Assembly (NCBI GenBank): GCA_029834535.1
Contig: JAQMWT010000687.1
Coordinates: 22,291-86,290 of the forward strand
DNA: 64,000 nucleotides
Direction of reading: 5' to 3'
From: Chrysophaeum taylorii
Taxonomy: Eukaryota; Sar; Pelagophyceae; Pelagomonadales; Pelagomonadaceae
A model generated the notes under the pieces. That model saw only the letters and a program-made list of their open reading frames with translations. It ran no database searches and was not told the DNA's origin. Positions 28,102-44,500 of the stretch are shown one piece after another (position 1 is the stretch's first letter; the number at the start of each line of letters is the position of its first letter). Both the position numbers and the translations under genes were made by a program.

Positions 28102-31100
28102 TTAATCGTCTTGCTGGACGATGGGCTGTTGCAAACCAAGTAACGTATGAAACGTAGAGAAGAGGGGAGCACCGAAGGGCTTAGTAAATCCGTCGGCAAC
28201 GTTTTGGGTACCAGAAATGTGGTATAGCCTGATGCGTTTCAACTGAACATAGTCGCGAATTCGGAACCAGCGCGTGCTGATGGCTTTAGCTTTAGTCGCA
28301 CTGTCGGGCTTATTCGACAAATGGATAGAAGAAGCCGAGTCTCCAAGAATTGGACAGTTGCGAATGAACGTCATATCCGATGGAAGAGGATTGCCGTGGA
28401 AATCATAGTCTAGCAGCAAATCTTTACCTGAAGGTTGGCGGAGATAATATCGCGGGTTTATTGCAAATGCCATTTCCGTCAGCAACTTACGTAGCCAAAC
28501 CACATAATCAGCGCAAGTATTAAGAGCGGTGAGCTCACTCTCATGAGTGGACGTGGTTGAAGCTTGGATTTCCATGTTATAAGAGAACCAAATGGGAAAA
28601 TATCATAACCAGTCGTACTTTTGCGGTCATGCTCATAAGAAGCCGCGTTGTCAGCATCTACAAATGCAACCAGTGGATCAAAATTACCGGAATCCACCTG
28701 TTCGGCAGTGTAGTCTAACATGGTTGCCATATCTGAGCGATTGCAAATAATAGAACGTAAGTGATCCATTAGCGCGGAAGACTTCGAGTAATACCATAGG
28801 CGGAGATTGCGATTTTCCGGCTTACGAAGATAGCGAAATACTCCAGCTAATATTCGGAAATGCAGGAATGATGGGTCATGTATTCCGCGGGAGCAGCGGC
28901 TGAGACTATGAGAAAGATCAGGTCGGCAAGCTAGCTGAACGAGTGTTAGCTTACCAAGAAGTGTCGAAAAAGTATTAAGAACTTACTCGTCTGTCTCAGT
29001 GGCCGGATCTCCAGTTTTATAGACAGCTGAAGGTGACATGGGAGTCGAGGAGGGTCGTAATTTTAACAAGATAGAGTGCTCCTCTATGCTGGCATCAATT
29101 ATAGCTTGACAATCCAGCGAAATGGAACCATCGGCAGTACACGTTACTCGCATACCCAAGAGAGTGCGAACTTCTTCGAACGATTCAACGGAGTATTCTT
29201 TTCTCCTAGCCTGTTGAAAAAAAAGACGGAGGATTTATGAAGTGCAGATGACGACAACATTATCCACAGATAGAGTGCACAACAAGAAAGTGGCATCATC
29301 TCGGACCTTAGCATGGATGCAGGTGTCTGTGCGAAAGCGATGGTAGCCTAGCGCGTCAAAGAAACCTTAATTGTCTGATTCCAGGGCGCAGGACTCTGCC
29401 GTGGTCCACAAAGCGACTTTAACAAGTTGGGAAGACGGCGGCCTTGATACTTAGCGTCTTCAGGATCCAGTAAGTATATGCTTAGCGGTAGCTTGACATG
29501 GACGTGAGAATCGATGGGGGCTTGGACGAACGCGTTGGGCACGTCTATATGATAGACAGGAAGCCGAAGGTGCGCAGCTAGAGCTAGAACACAACGGATG
29601 CCGGTGAGCTGCGCCATCGGGCTGAACGTGTTGAAGAGAAGTCGGCACCAAGGGAAGCGAGAAACCCCCTTAGCACCAACCTCGCCTTGTGCTTGAGATA
29701 CTCGCCGGCGGCGTTGGTCTTTATACGCAACACCAGCCGGGTATCAATGGGTTTGGAGTTGGCCATCGGCAACGATAACTTGAAACAGCCGAACTTAACA
29801 ATATCGAAGGTCTCCTTGGAAATCGCGGAGAAGTAGGCCTTGCGATTGGCATCTGAGAGACCTTTTAGACAGGTCAGCTCATCCTCATCGATCTTGACGT
29901 CTTTGGCTTTGGCTTGGATCTTATATTCATCAGGGCCGACCGTGCTGGGATCTTGATCTTGGGTCAAATAGGTGATCGCATAAGAATCGGCATCTGAATG
30001 AGCGGGAGCATGTTCGGGAATTTCGACTAGTTGAATTACAAGTGGAGGATCAGCTTGGAGGTGAGCCTCAATGTTGTGAGCCTGCACGGTGAGGTAGTCC
30101 TCGATGTCGGAGAGATGGGGTTCTGAAGCTCCGCAGGAGGATTCATTATGTGCCATTAAGGCGTGGGGCGATAGCAGTGCATACGCGTATTGAGCGGGAG
30201 GAACTTGAAATGCTTGAGCGTGCTCGGTAATTAGATGAACAAGAGCGCGAGGTAGATGGAAATCCGAGAGGCTGGAGGTGTCGAGAAGGTGAACTGGTGT
30301 GGCAGCCAATGGATGGATGTGACTGCCTTGACACACACCAGAAGATGAGCGTGAAGATGATTGCGATAGCGCTTGGTGAACGTGAAGTTGGGTCTGTGTA
30401 AATTCCCCCTCTGGAGGCATAGCCATCCAGTGGATGCCATTAGCAGCATGCAGAGAGTGGAGGGTGGGGTCGAAGAAAGTAATATATTTCTTGGACAAAT
30501 CATATTTGAAATCGGCGAGCGTACCACCAGCTTGCTTGTAAGCAGCGACCGTGGGCGAAGCGATGCGAGATTGTACAGCGTGGAGATTAGTTTTACGGCG
30601 AGGTTGAGGTTGATTAGGACCTCGGGTGAGACGAAGTGCATCTTGTGCGAATAAATCACGAAATGTTTGCAATATAGGCAAAGCATTTTGTGATAACTCA
30701 GATGTCGTAGGTGTTGTGACTGGAGCAGCTGGAGTGGGTGCGGGAACTGGAGCTGGAGTAGAGGTAGTCCCCCTCTTGTGTTCAGTGTCAGGTGACACAG
30801 CAATCCCCTCTGCAACGCATCACTGGGGGTGCTTTGAACAAAAAAGGGTACCTCGGGAGAAGGTGCAGGTGGTGGGGATTGTTCATAATCGGGAGGAGAA
30901 TTAGAAGTTAAGTGAGAAAATGTAAGTTTAGAAGAGACACGGACTTGACCGTTCTCGGGATTAAGCAACATCAGCTAAATGGTTAACATGAGGGGTAACC
31001 AGGCGATTTGTGACATTAGCGCCACATAGGTAAATGTAGGGACGACAGTGAGGTTCGTATTTATGGAACTCATTAGATTCCAAATGCAAATAACATACAG

Positions 31101-31514: not shown

Positions 31515-31770
31515 CCGACACTGAGCGCGAAACCCTCGCTAAAATCGAAATGCACCAGGCTCGATTCAAACTCGAGCCTTATGGCCGATTTTTGGCCGTT
31601 GGGACGACCCCGAGAACAAGGCCACCACCTTTTCGGACCCCCCTCGCTCTGTTCTCAAGTCCATGGACGGCGCGCAAGTCACCCCCCAAATGCCCTCTTA
31701 CCACGTCATGCAGTTGTTCGTCGAACACACATCTCATGCCCGAGACTGGCATTACTCCATACTGCCCTTT
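31515..31770 (+). pseudogene. Unidentified coding remnant next to copia D
   Basis: On the plus strand, LSDTERETLAKIEMHQARFK and EPYGRFLAVGTTP read in one frame. After a one-base shift near 31615 the frame continues ENKATTFSDPPRSVLKSMDG to FVEHTSHARDWHYSILPFN. The copia D LTR starts directly after it (31775). The composition looks like real protein and the two halves join naturally. I do not recognise the family; it could be host sequence or another gag. It is the best candidate for the target into which copia D inserted. Confidence 0.35.
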
Positions 31771-31774
31771 AACC

Positions 31775-31983
31775 TAGAGAACAGTAATTTATACTGTGCT
31801 ACCCTTCGGTAGAGTGAGAGCAGTGGTAGGCTGCCCTGGTATGCGGTAGTTGTCCTGTTCTTAACAACGAGGACAGCACTGTGTTGATAACACAGCGATG
31901 TTTTCTGATTATTAGTGTGAGATGAGAAGGTGCTAACCCTATGATAGGGGGGTACTAGCCCCAAATTGAATTTTGTGTCTCTA
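31775..31983 (-). repeat. Copia D 3' LTR
   Basis: 209 bp. In element orientation it starts TAGAGACACAAAATTC and ends TACTGTTCTCTA. A possible polypurine tract TAGGGCG precedes it. Length and sequence match the LTR at 595-790. Confidence 0.85.
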
Positions 31984-32023: not shown

Positions 32024-34524
32024 TCAAACTAAACAGGACGAGATCTCCGTTTCGTATGGTGGAAGAAAGTGGAAAGACGGACTTGGCGAGATGGAGGTGA
32101 AGAAGAGGTGGAATGAACACCATTGGCGTTCTTGAATTTGTGAAACAAAGTGCGATAAAGAAGTTCCGAAAAAATGATCGGCAATCTGGTACTGAGTAGG
32201 ACACCAAAAGGGACGAATCACCGAATTGGCTTGGTAGTCACGGATGCGAAATTCTCGTAAGTTAATATGACGAGAGGGAGCACTGACTTTAGGGTGATTA
32301 GCAACACGTAATGCGCTAGCATTGTCGATAAGCAGGGGGATAGCGTGAGCTTGATCACACGAAAATAAATAGGGATGGGAAGAAAAGATCTCATGAAACC
32401 ATTAACATTCATCCGCAGCTGCGCCAGCGGCGTTGAGTTCGGCTTCCATGGTGCACTTGGCAGTGAATGTCGGTCGTTTACTAGACCAAAATGCGGGGGT
32501 CAAAACTGTCAGCGAAACTGGCATCAGTGAAACAAATAATGGGCGAACTAAGATGATGCAATTCGGGATAGTTGCTGATCAAATGATGAATAAATGGCGT
32601 AATGGAAGGGCTGTCGGATGAATAATATAAAGAATCAGTCGGAGTACCCTTCAAGTAGCGAAGTAAAACAGACAAGTGCAGAAGATGAGTCTGCTCAGGA
32701 TTGTGCATCCTTTACAGCATTTGTTGCACAGAGTTGATATATCAGGGCGACATGTGACGGAGAGGTAGATACTAGTGCCACAATAATGAGGAGTGTGTTT
32801 GCGAAGAATGTCGAGGGTAGGAGCCAAATCGGAGAGAAGCTTAGCCGAAGGCTTCTGATTGAGCAATTCGGAGTGTGATACGTCCGAACCGCGAATGTTG
32901 AGCTTATGTTCGGCGAGCATTTTATTGATCTTTGCTGCGACATCCATAGTGAGATGACCAGCGGATACATTGTAATGCACGTCGATACCAAGAGAAGATC
33001 GAATATTGTCGTGCCAGGTGCCTTTGCCATATTCTTTCTCCAACGCAGTGCGAAGAGAGGTAATTCTGGCGGTGTTGGTACCAGCGATCAAAAGATCGTC
33101 GACAGAAACGGATAGGAGAACCCATCTGTTGATAGATCGATCCCAGCTTATATAGAGACAAGTGTCGACTCGCGAGCGTTCGAAATCGTGTTGTCAAAGG
33201 AACGAGTCAAGCTGGATGTTCCACAACAAAGCTGACTGTTTGACACCATAGAGTGCATTGACGAGTCGCAGTGCTAGCTTGGACTCTGGGTGGTTCTTCT
33301 GTATCTGCAGAATGAGGTTCTGCGAGACACGAATACCACGAGGCAAATCGATCCATACCGGACGATCAACGCCGATTGGATGAAGGCCTGTGGGATGTCC
33401 GCGTGCGCGACGGGGAGCTTGTGCTTCACGGCGATGGCGAGCAATAAACGGTTGGTGGCGAGCATCGCGGTCGGTGAAGAGGTGGCATAGAAATCGATGC
33501 CGACGCGTGCCAAGAAACCTCGGGCAACTAGGCGAGCCTTATAGCCTTATAGCGGTCCGGAGTGCCGTCAGCAAAATACTCGATCTTTAGCACGAGCTTC
33601 GTCGATATTGACGAACGATCCGGCGGCAATGGCTCCAGCTTGAAGACGCCATTAGAGCATAATCCCTCAATCTCCTTGCGAATTGAAGCGACGTGTCTGA
33701 GCTTATCTTCTTCGCTGAGGCCCTTGAGTTCGACAATTTTCTCAGGCTCATAGACAATGTCATCAGCAGTCAGCTGCAACACGACGTGGCCGATGTGCTG
33801 CAAGTCATAGTCCATGACTTCTCGAAGAGTGTCTTGTTTCGTGTCACTTCGACTTTAAAAAAAAAAGACGACCGAGTTCGCCGGAGTCGTGCATGAAAGC
33901 ATGTCTATGACGAGAAGCTATGTGTAAGTGCTGCTGCGCGGAGATGTCCCATAACAGGGAGGAGTTCATACAACCGAATTCTTGGTTCCATTGCCGCGCA
34001 TAGTACTCTGCCGGTGACAAATTGTCATGGCACACGTAGTTCTCGAGGGCAGAGTTATCGTTATCCAGATGGTCAACTAGAACAGACGAATGATGCGGTT
34101 TCCTTGGGAAGTCGACATGCAAGAGTTCGGCGTCTGCTTCTCTCTGCAGATCCAGCGCGTTGCCAACCAATATGCCGCAATCTTGAGTAGTGTGCGCGAG
34201 GAGGCATCCTATCGGTACATCGTCTGGTGGCTTAGCATGTCTCCTTATGTTCGATCCGGACGCGAGGCTGGCGGCATGGCCTTGGTGCAAAGCGCTGACA
34301 CTGACAAGGAACATCAATGTGCTAGACATGTTGGCTGTGGCGCGTGCCGTGGGCTGATCCTGTTGGTACTTCCAATTGCGATCATACTCTGAGGCGATAA
34401 TGCGCCTTGTGAACAACTGCCCATCGTCAACACGTTTCACGATGTAGAGTTGATCTTTAGGAATGCGGAAACCGCGGTCGTCCTTGAGATCTGCCTTGAG
34501 TTTGTCACTCTGGTTGCGATGCAC
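32024..34524 (-). pseudogene. Copia D reverse transcriptase and RNase H, degraded
   Basis: Reads right to left. A linker frame (34524-33844) is followed by the RT N-terminus at 33815-33528 (ISTKLVLKIEYFADGTPD, the standard copia block before K-A-R-L-V-A). Further RT pieces are LAIAVKHKLPVAHADIPQAF (33.45 kb) and, at 33091-32651, IRSSLGIDVHYNVSAGHL with LSVTCRPDIS. RNase H follows with LRYLKGTPTDSLYY (32.7 kb), IICFTDASFADS, the MEAELNAAGAAADEC block and DNASALRVANHPK (32.3 kb), ending at 32024. The pieces lie in at least five frames. The C-terminal part is closely similar to copia A (3-533). The catalytic YVDD loop is not clearly preserved; VSVDDLLIAGT near 33.1 kb is the best candidate. Confidence 0.8.
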
Positions 34525-35051: not shown

Positions 35052-36173
35052 TTAATGGCTTTGCGGGTATACGAAAGCGACTGGTTCGCCAAATGGGAGG
35101 AGCTTCAAGAGTGGTGCCTTTGACGACATGATGCGCCTGGGGACGGTGCAAGACATGTGAGTGCGCGAAGGCAGTCCATGGGAGCGCTGGTTGTCGGCTT
35201 GGATCTTGTGCAGCAGAGCAAACGGATGGCAATACTCGGCGCTAATGGGCTTCTCTTCGATGCGAACGTGGCGCAGATTCAGAAGGCGAATGACGGTGCC
35301 CCGGGTGTTTTCTTTGATGATGTTTTCCGCAAAGTTCCGCTGGTGTAGGTGGCGACCAATGATTCGAAACTGGTGCCAAGTTGCACTTTGAGCGAGAGTG
35401 AAAGGCTTCGGGCGGAATGTCGAGAATGCGTCCGATGATATCATCTTAGCATGTACATCAAATTCGACCTTTACGACGTTGACCACGTAGAGGATTCCTG
35501 CAAGAACGTCTAGTGCGTCCAGTTTCCGCAGGAAGTATACCCATTTGTGGGCCGATATAACGCACACGAAGTGCATGATGTAACGAAATCCACCATAGCA
35601 TTTACTGATGCTCGGGTAGGACACATCCATGTGGAGATGTTGGCCAGGGGCATAGGCCAATTCGTCATGCGACCAAGAAGCGTTCTTATGGCTGAAACCG
35701 ACGTGTGACTGGCAGCGCTTGCAGTCGGTGCAGTCCTGCCGATACGGGTCATCACCAGTGCGGAGGTTAGTGACATTATCTGCGATCGTGCGGCGAAGAA
35801 TCTCGGGCTGCTGGTGGTGAATGCGGTGCCAGCGGGTGACCAGGAGCACTCTTTGGGCGTGCTGAATGGTGCCAGGCTTGTGAAAAGGGGGCAGCGCGGC
35901 AGTCTGAGTGCGAGGAGGGGTGGCTCGTTTGTCGACTCTGACTTTTGCAGCGGTGGCTTGAGCAAGGAGCGTTTCGAGGTTTGTTGAGTTTGGCGACTTT
36001 CGAATCGCAGCATGGTGAGCGTCGGCAACCGCACTGAAGAGGGAGGTGAGGTGGAGGTCTTCAACTGCTAGAAGGCGGCCAGAGATGTTGGAGAAGAATT
36101 CCGTGATCTGACAGATGTCTCCTGGGCTAGGAATGCCATTGCGTAGTGCGTCCCATTCGATGTGAAGGTTCAC
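35052..36173 (-). CDS. Copia D integrase
   Basis: An open frame of 373 codons for the integrase that inserts the cDNA into host DNA. Residues about 105-175 form the GAG-pre-integrase/zinc region (LLVTRWHRIHHQQPEILR, then CTDCKRCQSH: an HHCC arrangement). The catalytic core shows the first Asp in GQHLHMDVSY, the second in KMISSDAFSTF, and the Glu in RNFAENIIKE, with 34 residues between the second Asp and the Glu, i.e. the DD35E type. The usual domain after the core is short, and the frame ends in PFGEPVAFVYPQSH. The upstream end overlaps the methyltransferase C-terminus in sequence order (stop of that part at 36219). This is the best preserved Pol segment of copia D. Confidence 0.85.
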   Translation of the reverse strand: MNLHIEWDALRNGIPSPGDICQITEFFSNISGRLLAVEDLHLTSLFSAVADAHHAAIRKSPNSTNLETLLAQATAAKVRVDKRATPPRTQTAALPPFHKPGTIQHAQRVLLVTRWHRIHHQQPEILRRTIADNVTNLRTGDDPYRQDCTDCKRCQSHVGFSHKNASWSHDELAYAPGQHLHMDVSYPSISKCYGGFRYIMHFVCVISAHKWVYFLRKLDALDVLAGILYVVNVVKVEFDVHAKMISSDAFSTFRPKPFTLAQSATWHQFRIIGRHLHQRNFAENIIKENTRGTVIRLLNLRHVRIEEKPISAEYCHPFALLHKIQADNQRSHGLPSRTHMSCTVPRRIMSSKAPLLKLLPFGEPVAFVYPQSH

Positions 36174-36218
36174 GTGGTGATGCGAGGCGTGATGTGCCAG
36201 AACAGCGCTGTACTTGGC

Positions 36219-38007
36219 CTATAGCATGTTATGTGGGACAGCGTTGGCCAGTGCCTTGAATGCGAAGAATGGCGGGTGCTGGCGGAACAATCGGAGAAGC
36301 TCTGGGTCCGAATGGTGTCCAAATTTTGCGATTTCGTTGAGAGTCGCGTATCGGATGCGATCGGGGGAGACCAGCAGAAGTGCGTTGGAGTAGCTCGTGT
36401 TGGTGGGGTACGAGCCAGTGACCGAGTAGCACTTGGTGCTTTTCTGGAGCGTTTCGCCGATGTGGCCGACATAGTCCGCGTAAGTGGGACGTGCTTCGGA
36501 CATTATGAGTCCCGTGGGGTCATCGAGAGTGATTCGCCCTCGTGAATCGATCGCGGCAAATCCGGGGTGTGAGCCATTAATGTAGTGGGCCCACGTGGAG
36601 GGACGCGAGCAGCTGTGCGCGGCAGCCGAGGAGGTGGTGAAGGCCACGACCAGAAAAGCGGTGCCCATGGGGACAGACAGGGAGAAGGCGTGCTGCGGCG
36701 AGAAAGCGGCGGTTTGGTGGGAGCAGTCCAGGATCTGGGGGGGCACGAATGGAGCGTGAGCGAGGCGCGCGTGAAGTAGCCGCATGCAAGGGCGGTCGCA
36801 GCGGTGCCGGGGACGAGTCCATCCAGCTGGTAGGCGCATGTTGACTCGGAAGCGTGGAAGCAGCGAAGCGTATTCCAGGAGGCGAGAGTGGGGTGTTGCA
36901 GCAGCTGCAAGTGGTTGTGCAGTAGTGTAAATACCAGGAGGTGCGGGATAGAAGTCATGGAGGCATAGGGGTGCCGTCTGCGTCCTGTCCAAGATCCATG
37001 AAGGGCTGCTTGAGACGTGCGAGCATTTGGCAAATGTGTACATTCTCGGAAATCGAGAGTTGAGCTGCATTGGCGGGTGTGTACGAGAAGATAGCCTTGT
37101 GCTGATAGTAATCCAAGGTTGAGCGAGTCACAGTGCCGCGAAGGGCGGAGGCGGGTATCCAGAGGTCTTCTGGGATGGTGTGACTACGGTCCTAGAAGGG
37201 AACCATGCTCGGTGGGGATGTCAACCAGGAGGAGGCGGTTTTCTCGAGATTGTAGCCATCTAGCGGGTGCCGAGCGAAGACGGCGAGATAACGGTGCTTG
37301 CTTGTGGCGTTGCCGAAGGCTGGGGCGTTGTAGACACCGGAGTGTCGAAAGTAGCCCATACTTTGATAGTGTTTGGCGAGTTGCGTGTACTCGTGATGAC
37401 TTTTCGGGTTTGGCGGAACGTTCTCGACAATGGTGTATGTCGGGAGCGTGCAACGAACAAAGCAGACTTGTTCTTTGACAAAAAGATCGGCAGTCGCTGG
37501 AGTCGCATAGCCATCATATTCCTTCATTACGCTTAGGTGTTGACGGGGCAGGGTGAAGACAGTCATGTCATGTCGAGGTAGTCGTAGTTTGCCAGTTTGA
37601 AGGGCGGCAGTAAGTTGCCTGAGATCCCTGTAATGCTGAGCATCTGGGAACAATGGTTGCGCGCGGGCGTGCATGGTGGGGTTAGTTTCACATGTGACAA
37701 CGACAATAATGCGTTTGTCGAAGCGTTTGCGAAATGAAGTGAAGCCTTGTTAGTGGAGTCCACCTGCGATAATGGCAGTGTGCAGCGGAGGGGGTTGTGT
37801 GAACACAGTGAGGTCCGCGGTGCCAGTGAGCACATATTCTAAATAGGGGCTCGGCAGTTTGAAAGATTCCGTCAGAAAAGCAGAATGGGCTTGCAATTTG
37901 GCAAAATCGAGAAAATGGGACTGCGAGCGTGTTTTTGCGACTTTTTGCGTACTGTTTGCGATTTCATCCTTGAGGGACATCTCGGGACGAGTGTGGAAGC
38001 TGACCAC
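36219..38007 (-). pseudogene. Copia D cytosine-C5 DNA methyltransferase domain, catalytic Cys lost
   Basis: A C5-methyltransferase placed between protease and integrase. From right to left: motif I, LHTAIIAGGLH and QGFTSF, with a TAA stop at 37750-37752; the acidic motif VVVTCETN; a Phe-Pro/Asp block FPDAQHYRDLRQL; motif IV, VFTLPRQHLSVMKEYDG, where the expected P-C-Q is P-R-Q (Arg codon at 37543-37545); motif VI, YTIVENVPPNPK (ENV codons 37417-37425); motif VIII, FGNATSKHRYLAVFAR; a TAG stop at 37192-37194; then a probable target-recognition region. In another frame (36219-37070) come motif IX, RIRYATLNEIAKFG, and motif X, FKALANAVPHNML. The order and spacing are those of a full-length DNMT/Dcm-type enzyme. 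Two stops, a frameshift and the Cys-to-Arg change make this copy inactive. It is not a close relative of the gypsy methyltransferase domains. Confidence 0.83.
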
Positions 38008-38337
38008 ATTGGCAAATACATGCTTAGGATGAGATGGCAGTGACAGGAGGCCGTTAGTCTGTATATGAGCGATAACTACAGCAGTGGTTTTTAAAAGTGT
38101 TTTGTAGTCATGAGGGTCCGAATAGAATTTTGCAGAAGCTCATATAAATATGGCTTGTGCGGCAGCGGCGGGTCCGTTGCCTGAACATTTAGGGCGTTTA
38201 GCTGTGATGTCGCTAAAACCTGCAAACCTGGTCGGAAATGCGGGACGATCAGGAAAACCAAATATAATGCGTAGCCAGTAGTGTCTTGATGTCATGTGAT
38301 GAGAGACCTGCAGCTTGCAGATATAGTGGCTTTGTAC

Positions 38338-38981
38338 CTATGAAATTGTTGGTGAGAGTGCCACTTCCCATGCGGATGGTATGCTCGGGAATCCTGCGTA
38401 TGGATTCCTGAATAAAATCTGTTGTGGTGCGAGTAAAGCAAAAGAAGCACTGCCGTCAAGCAAAGAAAATTCGGTGCCGGGGCCGTTGCATCCGTGCAGG
38501 GAATGCGTCTTTTTGGAAGGTTTCCCTGCGGTGTCAGCTGCGCATAAGAAATCGGCGACTGTTTTGGAAATTGGCAATGATGTGGGGAAGTTTGTCATCG
38601 CTAGGCTGGGTGCCTGATTTAATGTTGTTTGGTTGGCGGCACAGGCGTCGTCGGCAACCGTTCGCGAAAAAGCCGGCACTGATGAAGTGCACGTACGTAG
38701 TCTAAGTGGCGTGGTACGTACTCTTCGATGGAGTCTTCTTGATCTTCGATTTCGGGAACTTGATCATCGTCGTATAAGCCGAGGTGACCATGGTCATCAT
38801 ATAAACCGAGTTGGCCTTGGTCATCGTACAACGAGCCGTCGTCGATTGCGCCCTCATCAGCGTGATCACCCGGCGGTTTGTCGGAGGAGAGGAGCAGAAG
38901 GAAGTCGGCGGCATCAGTATCAGCCTCAGATAGGAGACCCTCGTCAGAGATGGTGGTGATGAGGTGTATGAGCTTGGTCAT
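38338..38981 (-). pseudogene. Copia D protease region and gag-protease linker
   Basis: The aspartic protease that would process the Gag-Pol polyprotein. Right to left: an acidic linker (ISDEGLLSEADTDAADFLLL and DDGSLYDDQGQLGLYDDHG, with a short internal repeat YDDxGxLGLYDD), then a shifted frame at 38679 with ISKTVADFLCAADTAGKP and the active-site loop EFSLLDGSASFALLAP. The loop reads D-G-S-A where copia proteases normally have D-(S/T)-G-A. A frameshift separates it from the methyltransferase frame. The region from 38010 to 38340 has no clear frame but probably covers the end of the protease. Confidence 0.55.
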
Positions 38982-40503
38982 GCGGTCAGGGTTGGAGGTG
39001 TGTTCCCGACCAGCTTGACTGAGGTTGCGGATGGTCTGGCGCTTACGGCGAACATCGCGTAGTGGGACTTTGGAACGTTGGTCAGGAGTGGGTGACTTGG
39101 GAGGGTGCGTTTGTGTGGGAAATGTGACCTTGCGGAGGTGCGGGTGTTCGCGTTTGTCAGAGATGACAGGAGGAGAACGGGGATTCGGCTTGTGTTTGGT
39201 GGGTGTGACCGGGGTGGTCTTGGGCTTGGGACTGTCATTGATGTCGTAGTATGACGGTGAACGAGGATTCGGGGGCTTTTTGTTTTTCTTAGGGTGGCGG
39301 GTGGGTTGTTTCTTGCGATAAGCGTGGAGGTGTAGGATGAGTGCGCTGTCATCGTCTGAGTCGAGATTGGCTTCCGTGATATAAAGGCGTCGACAAGGTC
39401 GGCGTCGTCAGGAGGTGCGTCATTTGGATCAGGGGGGTTCTCGTCTTCGGGAGGAGAAGCGTCATCGTCATCTTCGGTGAGGTGGAAACCAAGACGGCGG
39501 GAACGGAGGCGTGGGTTGTCTTTGTCTTTGGTCGGCAGAGGACCGAAGTCGGTGACAAACCGTAGAGGCTTGAAGTTGAGAGAGTGGCGGGGCATGAGGT
39601 GAGCCCATAAGTTGCGTTCAAAAGTCGATATAACTGTGATGCGTGCAATGAGCTTGGGCAGATGGTGAATCGCAGCCTTGTCTTCGTCGAGGAGCTGAGA
39701 GTCGTTCGGAGTACGAAGACAATTAGCTAGACGGGCGAAGCCTTTGATGTGAGTTGGGGCGCGGGAGTCAAGTAAACTTGGAGGGTACTTGAAGCGACGT
39801 ATTCTATTAATTTCTTCTTTTATCGTGTCGTCGTCGAGTTGGAGAGAAGGATCGTCGGTGATTTGACGTAATCGCTGTTGGACGTGGCGCATGTGGTCTA
39901 TATAGTGCGCTGGTTCGTGGATCTCCGGGTCGAACGGTGTCTCCAGGAACGAATTGAACACATAGTGAGCATGATGGACATGGTTCTGGCCCGTGTGCTT
40001 GTCAAGAGCGATGCGAACTTGGTGTGCGAATTCGAGGCCTATGGGGTGAGAGGGTCGAGTTTGTCGATCTCGTCGTATGCGGGGTGCTTGACAGAGTCGC
40101 AACCGGCGTGCAGAAAACGGCGGAATAGAGGGTGTACGGTCTCGCGGAGGGTGACGATGAAATCAGCTTCTTTATCTTCGAGGTGAGGTTGCGTGATAGG
40201 ATGGAGCTTCCCTTTCGACGAATCGGTGGTATCTTTATCTTGTGCTTGGAGTTCTTGGAGTTTGGGCTCATAGACATTGCCAAGGAAGTCTTTGCCGAAC
40301 TTTCGGTAGACGCCCTGGTAATAGACTAAGCGTCCTTGGAAATCTTGGGTGTTGCCAGCTGTGGCATGGTGTTCGGGGCGTTTGTCGTATTCTTCGGTGG
40401 AGTGGCTGAGGAGAGCGTCTGCTAGATCGTTAGATCCGCGTATAACAGATTCCCACGTGTAGAAGCCTTGCAGGAAGTATTGAGTATCAAGCACTTCCTT
40501 CAT
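38978..40503 (-). pseudogene. Copia D gag
   Basis: Two overlapping frames on the minus strand. The first (40503-40039) starts MKEVLDTQYFLQGFYTWESV and runs 154 codons. It joins by frameshift near 40070 to the second (40102-38978), which has the helical region LEFAHQVRIALDKHTGQNHV and RIRRFKYPPSLLDSRAPTHI, then an acidic/Pro linker (DDDDASPPEDENPPDPNDAP) and a basic Ser/Pro tail. No standard CCHC knuckle is visible. Position at the 5' side of protease, and length, fit copia gag. The upstream LTR is missing. Confidence 0.6.
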
Positions 40504-40508
40504 GTCAG

Positions 40509-41096
40509 ATGTTCATGCTCGTGGTACCGCCATATACGGCAACCAATATCGACGTGGACTGCGTTCCACCATCCTATCTGAGCGTTACCCCCGACATGCT
40601 GCCTCCCGCACTGTTAGACAGCCCTATCACGTCCGATCCAGCTTCCAACGCCTCGTATGACGTCACACGTCATATTCCGATTACAGCCCAGACACCGCAC
40701 AGGCTCCTGGTCACCCGCTGGCACCGCATTCACCACCAGCAGCCCGAGATTTTTCGCCGCACGATCGCAGCTAATGCCACTAACCTCCGCCCTGGTGATG
40801 ACCCGTATCTGCAGGACTGCACCGACTGCAAGCGCTGCCAGTCACACGTCGGTTTCAGCCATAAAAACGCTTCTTGGTCGCATGACGAACTTGCCTATGC
40901 CCCTGGCCAACATCTCCACGTGGATGTGTCTTACCCGAGCATCAGTAAATGCTATGGTGGATTTCGTTACATCATGCATTTCGTGTGCGTTATATCGGCC
41001 CACAAATGGGTATACTTCCTGCGGAAACTGGACGCACTAGACGTTCTTGCAGGAATCCTCTACGTGGTCAACGTCGTAAAGGTCGAATTCGATGTC
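40509..41096 (+). pseudogene. Inverted copia integrase fragment
   Basis: Part of a second copia integrase in the opposite orientation to copia D. From about 40700 it matches the GAG-pre-integrase/core region (LLVTRWHRIHHQQPEIFRRT, CTDCKRCQSH, GQHLHVDVSYPSI) and stops at VVNVVKVEFDV, where the LINE 3' end begins (41,097). It is similar but not identical to 35.45-36.0 kb. The first 60 codons (MFMLVVPPYTATNIDVDC) match nothing in copia D. Confidence 0.8.
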
Positions 41097-41113
41097 CTTA
41101 CTACTAATCGACA

Positions 41114-41175
<62 letters not shown>

Positions 41176-41565
41176 TTGTCTTTAAATGTCGACTGCTAAG
41201 AGGGGGGTGTGTGGGGGGAGCATGAAGGATGTGGGTGGGTTTGTGGGGTAGGAGGGATGTGCCTGTTTGTTTGTTTGACTTTAAATGTCGACTGCTAAGA
41301 GGGGGGTGTGTGTGGGGAGCATGAAGGATGTGGGTGGGTTTGTGGGGTAGGAGGGATGTGCCTGACGGGCGGGGATAAGTACGCGGGACCTAGTCGGGGT
41401 CATCGCCGAGTCGTGGGGCAGTTTGTTTGTTTGTTTGTTGGTTTGTTTGTTTGTCTTTAAATGTCGACTGCTAAGAGGGGGTTGTGTGTGGGGAGCATTA
41501 AGGATGAGGGTGGGTTTGTGGGGTAGGAGGGATGTGCCTGACGGGCGGAGATAAGTGCGCGGGAC
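41097..41565 (-). repeat. LINE 3' untranslated region with tandem duplications and (CAGA)n tail
   Basis: The 3' end of the LINE in element orientation finishes with (CAGA)n, CTGTCGATTAGTAG. Upstream, the block around CTTTAAATGTCGACTGCTAA, a G-rich stretch and AGGAGGGATGTGCCTG is present three times (about 41180, 41280, 41457), each next to a TTTG run. The (TCTG)n tract on the plus strand covers about 41112-41175. Confidence 0.75.
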
Positions 41566-44500
41566 CTAGTCGGGGTCATCGCCGAGTCGTGGGGCAGGCG
41601 AAGAGAGGACGGGCCCCGCCCGTAGGTCGTACGCATGTTGCCGCCGGACGTATGTGCGACGAAAGGCGACGTCCTGCTGGTATCGGGCGGCCTGGGTGGG
41701 GTTCCCCGAGGCGGCGACATGGGCGAGGGCGGTGAGGGCACAGCGAGCCCGGCCTAATGCGTTGGCGATCCCCCACGCACGGTAGATGCGGCGAGTTTGG
41801 GCCGCCTTTGCCTCTGTGAAGTCGGCGCAGCCGCTTGCCACCCAGGTTCGCGCAGCGATGCGCTCTGCGCATGTTTGGGCGAGAGCGTGGCACGCCGCGC
41901 TGGCCTCACCGAAGGCACCAAAGACGAGGCCGGCGACGGTGCCGTAGCTACGTAGCCGCTGTTCGACAGGGCCCAAGAAGCCAGGCGGTGGTGCTGTACC
42001 CGGCTGGGGGATGATGGCGTCGATGCCGCGGGCGTGAGCGAGGTATTCGGAGTGGACTTGCGCTGCGCGCCGATCGACAGGCGACGGGTGGGAGGGATGG
42101 AGAGCGTGGGCGGTTTAGAACGAACCCCAAGCGAGGGTTTTGATGTCGTATAGTTGCTCCTTGTTGTCGAGCGTGGTGAGGATGTCTGGGACGACGTGGC
42201 GACGGGCGAGATTGCCTCGGTAACGGCCGTAGATGCGCGTGCGAACGGTAGGGGCGACGACGTCAGCAAAGATGCCGAAAACCTCGGACAGGGCTGGGAT
42301 GCCGGCCTCTTTGACGCTGCAGTGGACGCGCTCGAGCTGGCCGTCATGCCAGGTGGTCCGCGCTCCTCCGCGGTTGACAAGGTTGGCCTGCGTGAGAAGC
42401 ACCTTGCCGTGAGCGTCGAAAACGACGTCAGTGCCCATAATGCGAGTGCCCACGAGGCCCGAACAAGCTGGAGAGGGGTAGCCAAAGGACTGGGCACACA
42501 TCTCAGCCCAGCAGCGGTTGGGGATTTGAAGGGCGGAGCTGGGCCACGAGCTGATGAACGTGGTCGAGAAGCGATCCCATGAGGACGCCGCTACTCGAAG
42601 TGCATCGGTGATGGGAAGGGTGGCCGCAAGGCGCTGGAGTGCAGTGGCCCGAGCTGTCTCGCGCTGGGAGGTTAGAGCGCGCTGGAGTTGGGGTATGAGC
42701 ACGGGTGTCGAGATGGTGGGGTCGACGAGGACGCCCATGGAGACGAATTCGTGGGAGAGAGGACCGTCGACGAGATGAACGTTGGCGGGGTCGCCGGAAC
42801 CAGCGCCGCCGTGGGAAGCCAGCGTGGTACGGAGATCAGCCCGAAGTCCGTCCCACGCAGTCTCGAGTGCTCGCCCCAGGCGGCAACCGGATGCGAGGAG
42901 GTGGTGCCAACGGTGCAACTCGTTACCCGTGCGAAAAAAAAAAAAATAAGTGGCACCCAGGACCGAGGCGAGGCGGGGGAGGTAGCCAGGGACCTCCACG
43001 GCACCCGTAGGATCGCGAAGGTCGACGAGGTGTGGGATGGCCTGGGCCGCCGTGCCAACAAAGGCGGCGGGGCTGAGGTCGGCGCAGGAGCGAATGCCGC
43101 CACCCCCACTTCGAGCAGGAAGACGGAGGCGTTGGAGGACGATGCCGGTGGAGTCAAAAACCTGACTGGTCTGCGCCAAGTGCTGTGGCGACGAAGCTGA
43201 GGACGGCAACGTCGAAGCGGCGGAGCGCGCTCAAGGCATTGGTGGGGTAGCAGTGTTGTGCGATGTAGTCCATGCGCGGTGCGATGCAGTAGCGGCCCAA
43301 CGAGTACATGCAGTGGAGGGAGACGTTCTGGAGCTTGGTGCGAATACGGCTCATGTAGCTCACCTGAGCGTCAACCTCGCGTTGCAAGGTAGCTTCGACA
43401 TAGGCATCTCCGGCGTGTCCGGGGGAGCCGATGGGCACACCGTAGATTACGAGGCCGTCGGCGACAACGGGGATACCAGCAAGAGTACGCGTGCCGTCAG
43501 GCGCAACTTGGACGTGGTCGTGAACATCGGGGTGATCGAGAAGACCCATGCCAAGTGCCGGACAGAACGCCACGCACTTGTCGAGGCGGAGCTCCTCGCC
43601 GCTAGCTTGGATGTCGCGGGCGTACTGCAGGAGGGCGTCGACAACCTCACGAGGGGAACCAGAGATGACGCCGTCGTCCATGCCAAATCGGGCGTAGCCG
43701 GCACATGAACGTAAGCGGGTGTCAAGGGCCTGTGCGGCGTCATGCGTTGCCAGAAAGTACGCCGGTGGATAGGTGGGGTCGCCTTGCTGGCCGCCTTCTT
43801 GAGAGTCGAAGGGGGCGCGATCGAGGCCGGTGGGGCCGTGGAGGGCCACCCAGGATGCCGGCCGTAATTGCTTGAACATAAAGTGGCCAAAGGCTCGCAG
43901 CTTGGCGTTGGCGTGGTTTGCGAGTTTGTCCACGACGGCCCGGCGCTTGAGCTCGTTGAAGGCGCTGCGTTTGTCCAGCTTGATGATGACCTGGTCGGGG
44001 TACTGCTCCGCGTGGGTGCGGACGCCAAAGACGAGGCGCGAGGGGCCGCCCTTGACCCCGACGGCAACGTTGATCGGGTACAGTGCCTCAGAGAGCTCGG
44101 AGTGGAGGCTACGCACAAGGCACCGTCCAGTGGCACGGCGGCGGGCGGTGCCAATGCCGATAGGTCGAACGTCAAGTGCTTGGTTAGCGTCAGCGGCGCG
44201 TCGTTTCACCAACGGAATGAGGGTTACCGTGTTGGTGATGAAGTAATAATTAACTAACTTCAGACCTCTCCCGAGCATGGGAGCCAGGCCGGACAGGCAG
44301 GAGCCGATCCGGAATCACAGAGGAAAATCACGCGGTTGGGGCTGAGGCGAGGGACGAGGACTCGTTGATGACGGACCGCCACTGCGCGCGGTCTTGTGCG
44401 AAGTCGTGCAAAAGCGTCGCAGGCCGCAAACGTGTTGGTCCACGAACAATCGACCTGTCCGTCGCGTTCTGCCCAACCGAGCGAACCCCATCCCAGCGCG

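Follow-up and report, generated by a model that had tools for sequence, protein, structure and literature searches.

Does a copia retrotransposon of the pelagophyte Chrysophaeum taylorii (Pelagophyceae, Stramenopiles) carry a C5 DNA methyltransferase as part of its own Pol protein, and what would such an enzyme do there? The question is raised by one locus in a stretch of 64,000 nucleotides (JAQMWT010000687.1:22291-86290), the whole of which we call the window. On its minus strand lies a copia element in the order gag, protease, methyltransferase, integrase and reverse transcriptase (RT) remnants, running from about 40485 to a 3' LTR at about 31770-31983. Gag survives as remnants in several frames (38619-40512, about 45-84% identity in the best matches to gag of other copies), followed by a protease-bearing frame (38338-38763, motif LLDGSAS) that aligns to the protease part of a better-preserved copy, L010, with the Asp and Gly kept. 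Beyond the methyltransferase, an open frame bearing the integrase finger and core (35052-36218) showed 61-88% identity in its best matches to the integrase of other copies; a Pfam search with it gave no match. RT remnants in several frames (32651-33854) reached 64-88% identity in their best matches to other copies, with RVT_2 scores of 30.3 bits at 32651-33193 and 14.3 bits at 33194-33538, both under the curated cut-off. The 3' LTR, about 200-215 bp long, aligns to the start of the 5' LTR of other copies. At the opposite end the element breaks at 40485, where homology begins at base 2020 of the L010 locus; the element there starts at base 1159, and LTR and leader are missing beyond the break.

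The surroundings hold several further repeats. Just past the 5' break lies an inverted 401-base copy of part of the integrase (40703-41103 versus 35447-35847, 96% matching), adjoined by a GACA-type simple repeat at about 41110-41170. Three direct copies of a 157-base unit occupy 41166-41597, two of them matching the reference copy at 71% and 96% identity, and related units occur at the loci L009 and L011. A candidate RNase H was seen, by eye only, downstream of the RT. Part of a second copia-type pol lies at 29584-30819 (RVT_2 19.8 bits, below cut-off), and two long minus-strand frames at 42115-44314 resemble a non-LTR-type reverse transcriptase by eye, with no Pfam match at E <= 0.01.

Between protease and integrase, an earlier note had read the motifs of a C5 methyltransferase, and all of its motif strings are present, in order, in minus-strand translations of the window. 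The range it gave (36219-38007) does encode the domain; the true start lies slightly upstream, at 38139. The domain is split into three pieces. The first (37750-38139) covers motif I and the sequence leading up to it, with AIIAGGLH at its stop-terminated end, and is 67% identical to L010 and up to 93% identical to another copy, L021. The second (37192-37749, 77% identical to L010) contains the acidic motif (VTCETN), motif III, motif IV (FTLPRQHLSV), motif VI (VENVPPNPK) and motif VIII (SKHRYLAVFAR). It was this piece that confirmed C5-methyltransferase identity within the window, matching PF00145 at E = 2.3e-7 and 31 bits (gathering score 22). The third (36219-37127), in a frame different from that of the other two, holds the target-recognition region with motifs IX (RYATLNEIAKFG) and X (ALANAVPHNML); over its residues 129-302 it shares 87% identity with L010. 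Searched singly against Pfam, the first and third pieces gave no match; both can be aligned with the methyltransferase of copies in better condition, and the proposal that motifs IX and X were captured along with the rest holds. Two stops, one in frame at 37750-37752 and another at 37192-37194, interrupt the reading frame, which also shifts at least once ahead of motif IX; motif IV reads PRQ, the catalytic Cys being replaced by Arg. With these stops, the frame change, the lost Cys and no 5' LTR, the window copy is a dead member of its family.

Better-preserved copies show what the element looks like when whole. In two of them, L010 and L011, a single open pol frame runs through protease, methyltransferase, integrase and RT and matches both PF00145 and RVT_2. 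L010 has a 578-aa gag frame overlapping a 1952-aa pol frame; the pol frame of L011 is 1868 aa long and ends inside RT. Along the L010 pol frame we located the protease motif LIDGGAS at 80, motif I at 310, motif IV at 385, ENV at 426, motif VIII at 468, motif IX at 783, motif X at 816, the integrase finger at 958-990 and RT at 1720. The copia gene order of protease, integrase and RT is thus present in this frame (80, 958-1088 and 1720), with the methyltransferase inserted after the protease, and the position between protease and integrase is borne out in the window and its relatives alike. RVT_2 matched L010 pol with 133.2 bits (cut-off 31.6); protease and integrase are named from their motifs, Pfam giving no protease match and the L010 integrase matching rve only below cut-off. 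In L010, L023 and L028 an ATG of the pol frame overlaps the gag stop; pol may be made either by frameshift or by re-initiation. LTR pairs, 89-98% identical, flank eight of the ten copies whose 3' side was examined (L011 and L017 lack them), and seven of these eight, all except L018, have a perfect 5-bp target duplication; L010 has both LTRs and a target duplication. The LTRs of the family end in TAGAGA...TCTCTA, not TG...CA. Just after the 5' LTR of L018 lies a candidate tRNA primer-binding site, a stretch resembling, as its complement, the sequence around the anticodon of a Met-tRNA; the other copies differ at this point, and a single genomic match to it (101 bases), when run through ARAGORN, yielded no tRNA gene.

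We searched the genome (a 70.8-Mb assembly of 697 contigs) for other members; the published C. taylorii assembly is described in PMC10366177 as 71 Mb in 702 contigs with 81.5% of eukaryotic BUSCOs. A PF00145 search that ignored introns, and in which 123 of 474 candidates were scored, gave 57 matches, 55 of which were assigned to the copia family; the other two are one DNMT5 and one DNMT2-like gene. Thirty-five of the 55 either overlap a match to the L010 domain or lie in retrieved loci compared directly, eight are fragments 74-95% identical to the L010 domain (one with stops), and twelve were assigned by position only, from the coordinates of a same-strand family integrase match 0.9-1.8 kb downstream. 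Queries with the L010 methyltransferase domain and with the family integrase matched at least 82 stretches (70 of 797 candidates scored) and at least 146 stretches (140 of 801), respectively, both lower bounds because only part of the candidates was scored. Among 15 integrase copies without a scored methyltransferase match, picked to include divergent ones, 14 had methyltransferase remnants within about 3 kb upstream: in L042, L048 and L053 only the C-terminal part is left, in L050 the N-terminal part is missing, and L049 had no remnant within that distance. All 13 rows of an alignment of the domain (A1), selected for open frames, matched PF00145 at E <= 0.01 (best 5.1e-12). Other members of the family thus carry the domain, which is not limited to one copy, and the genomic copies compared show that the family is multi-copy and that the methyltransferase belongs to the element and is no chance neighbour. 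We also looked at other copia elements. Two of five initially chosen loci, L054 and L055, have an integrase about 25% and an RT 34% identical to this family and contain nothing that resembles the methyltransferase at E <= 1, and an RVT_2 search scoring 150 of 1670 candidates found no close sister family free of the domain.

To follow individual residues, we mapped codons piecewise over 34 loci (18 loci taken at 10 kb, 15 stretches flanking an integrase, and the window copy). The relatives with P-C-Q that the earlier note had suggested looking for are there: among the 28 copies covering the site, all but the window copy (27) retain the catalytic Cys, and PCQ is found in 13/13 A1 rows and in 8/8 further fragments. 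The Gln of motif IV is kept in 28/28 copies, Glu and Asn of motif VI each in 27/28, the last Arg of motif VIII in 29/29, Thr and Glu of motif IX in 30/30 and Asn of motif X in 29/32. Even so, the label canonical claims too much: motif I departs from the common pattern, motif IV has PCQ instead of the PCN of DNMT3, and the usual motif VIII pattern, QxRxR, is not found in the family, where the last Arg alone is retained.

Median dN/dS over pairs of copies was 0.17 in the N-part of the methyltransferase (385 pairs), 0.20 in the target-recognition part (420) and 0.17 in the C-part (428), as against 0.14 in protease (237), 0.13 in integrase (214) and 0.11 in RT (88). The pairs share copies and are not independent, and decayed copies are included; the same copies read in shifted frames, with fewer pairs passing the filters, gave 1.33-1.96. 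By these values constraint on the methyltransferase is slightly weaker than on RT and integrase and comes close to that on the enzymes that transposition depends on. Residue counts and dN/dS together show that selection has held the predicted catalytic residues almost as firmly as it has held the remaining Pol enzymes. Pairwise divergence of the methyltransferase parts is correlated with that of protease, integrase and RT (rho 0.61-0.89); the observed value was reached by 0 of 500 permutations for protease or integrase and by 0 to 2 of 500 for RT. The simplest reading is that the capture predated the spread of the family, and the high dS (medians over all pairs 0.57-0.81) suggests that the family is old.

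What kind of methyltransferase was captured? Outside the family, the scored PF00145 matches comprise two host genes, with no DNMT1 or DNMT3 seen among the 57. The DNMT5 locus (L009, contig C621, 23,557 bases) combines PF00145 with SNF2, has TSC in motif IV and is 100% identical to CTAYLR_010750 over the searched region; the DNMT2-like gene (L016, contig C634) has DNMT2s as its best solved relatives and PCQ in motif IV. Both share the PF00145 superfamily and the genome with the copia domain. Identity with DNMT5 was rejected: unlike the host enzyme, the pol frames of L010 and L011 contain no SNF2, and hhalign against a 120-row DNMT5 alignment gave only a weak collinear alignment (17% identity, 7% probability, E 0.0049). 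Identity with DNMT2 was rejected as well, the comparison with the single host DNMT2-like protein yielding 10 columns in hhalign and E >= 1.3 in BLASTP, no real alignment or similarity in either case. DNMT3 has PCN in motif IV; because motif IV here is PCQ, a DNMT3 origin, as in the Gypsy and DIRS cases discussed below, is not indicated, though it is conceivable.

Broader searches placed the domain no more closely. Two PHROG methyltransferase families match it, and PHROGs and NCBIfam assign it only to the general C5-methyltransferase group, TIGR00675 scoring below cut-off against L010. The L010 frame and A1, each compared with 5.8 billion proteins (the 8000 candidates sharing most words being scored), returned nothing at E <= 1e-3. 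This empty result does not show that relatives are absent elsewhere: the database includes a C. taylorii protein from this assembly, yet the genome's own copies were not returned, so that gene sets probably leave out transposon frames. A phage search matched 37 of 50,697 records at E <= 1, with 3e-3 the best value among the 15 matches listed; a scan of viral contigs gave 79 pattern matches, 0 of them confirmed; and solved structures yielded one chain at E = 0.17. The fold predicted from one sequence for a 185-aa piece of the window had a mean pLDDT of 35.7, too low for use. On these comparisons the copia-borne domain, a member of the C5 superfamily far from all compared sequences and with identities too low for reliable positioning in a tree, is best called an orphan.

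Retrotransposons with DNA methyltransferases are described in PMC5890265 from LINE and DIRS elements of Symbiodinium and from Gypsy elements of Klebsormidium, the last of Dnmt3 type. The earlier note had taken the window element to belong to, or parallel, a copia type from dinoflagellates. That precedent was mistaken: a passage of the same paper places the Symbiodinium enzymes in LINE and DIRS elements and states that the Copia superfamily there "lacks any DNMT domain". The host here, moreover, is a pelagophyte and no dinoflagellate. A 2025 paper (PMC12344493) does speak of DNMT3 members in "LTR Copia and DIRS", citing for this the 2018 paper, which itself says Gypsy. We found no Copia-borne methyltransferase from a pelagophyte in the open-access literature.

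Each known case resembles ours in part. KnitGypsy-Dnmt3 of Klebsormidium nitens likewise has the methyltransferase in the Pol frame of an LTR retrotransposon and is under purifying selection, with Ka/Ks < 0.2 (PMC5890265); it is a Gypsy element of a streptophyte with a Dnmt3, whereas ours is a Copia element of a stramenopile whose PCQ enzyme has no demonstrated DNMT3 affinity. SymbioDIRS-Dnmt3 also joins methyltransferase and RT in one Pol frame, and two of its copies methylated CG de novo in yeast (PMC5890265), but it belongs to a DIRS element with a tyrosine recombinase and is of Dnmt3 type. SymbioLINE-Dnmt, like the domain described here, is an orphan outside the standard eukaryotic classes (PMC5890265), but there the methyltransferase lies in an ORF upstream of RT in a LINE, with another transposition chemistry. 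The SymbioLINE and KnitGypsy enzymes were inactive in yeast, a result that the authors call inconclusive (PMC5890265). With cases known in LINE, DIRS and Gypsy, and Copia elements of Symbiodinium stated to lack the domain, the present family adds another element superfamily, another host supergroup and, apparently, another enzyme type.

Taken together, we favour, with moderate confidence, the reading that the window holds a decayed copy of a copia family whose Pol consists of protease, C5 methyltransferase, integrase and RT, and whose methyltransferase would methylate the element's own cDNA. The capture was probably independent of the known ones, old and selectively kept, and the enzyme probably acts on the element's own nucleic acid. 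After proteolysis of Pol, the methyltransferase would travel with the other Pol enzymes and could methylate the cDNA ahead of integration. A new insertion would then arrive already marked; the host DNMT5 could maintain the mark, which might let the cDNA pass for "self" or spare the host some damage. The yeast activity of SymbioDIRS is the closest experimental support for such a role. Counter-points to self-marking are the departure of motifs I and VIII from the usual pattern and the inactivity of the SymbioLINE and KnitGypsy enzymes in yeast. CpG depletion was considered as a mark of self-methylation and rejected, the family not being singled out: the ratio of observed to expected CpG was 1.01-1.10 in eight copies of the family; two other copia loci had 0.81 and 0.88, and the host loci, DNMT5 and DNMT2, stood above all of these at 1.53 and 1.31. 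Since the family is not the lowest in CpG, its sequence carries no family-specific signature of methylation.

Possible, though we would not expect it, is an RNA methyltransferase that marks the genomic RNA or the tRNA primer and aids packaging, stability or priming. RNA methylation is raised for the LINE type in PMC5890265, and PCQ, found also in the host DNMT2-like protein, leaves the substrate undecided; the failure of hhalign and BLASTP to find real similarity to that protein speaks against an RNA substrate, as does the finding of no additional Pfam family in any of the 13 domain rows. It is rather unlikely that methylation has been lost and the domain retained for a structural or nucleic-acid-binding role within Pol: the atypical residues of motifs I and VIII would fit, but a purely structural role would not need the near-invariant catalytic Cys, ENV and motif IX Glu. 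Modification of host or viral DNA, as a defence against algal DNA viruses, is a hypothesis printed in PMC6338049 for retrotransposon methylases in general, and we consider it improbable for this family. That an unrelated gene, without a function in the element, was caught beside just one copia copy would fit the broken frames of the window alone, but we give this practically no credence because copies carry the domain in one frame with Pol (L010 and L011, the former with LTRs and target duplication), it lies upstream of integrase in many copies, and its divergence is correlated with that of the other Pol domains.

A bolder reading concerns who sets methylation in this host. DNMT5 is a maintenance enzyme, and only it and a DNMT2-like gene were seen outside the family; on this ground the copia-borne methyltransferases could be the only enzymes to methylate cytosine de novo in this genome, with marks written by the parasite and merely copied by the host. 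We regard this as unlikely, given that 123 of 474 candidates were scored ignoring introns and that DNMT6 is reported from Pelagophyceae (PMC9998398). The same source describes DNMT5 as accompanying DNA methylation in the pelagophyte Aureococcus, and loss of DNMT5 in a diatom as causing CG methylation to disappear globally.

More generally, a genomic parasite here carries an enzyme of the type with which hosts silence elements like itself. Capture of silencing enzymes by the elements that they silence is known from dinoflagellates and a charophyte, and a well-supported case in a Copia element of a stramenopile, where selection retains a diverged PCQ enzyme throughout a large family, would mean that such capture has happened repeatedly, in different supergroups and classes of element. 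C. taylorii, in which few DNMT genes have been seen to date, is a host in which the question of "who writes the methylation" can be tested.
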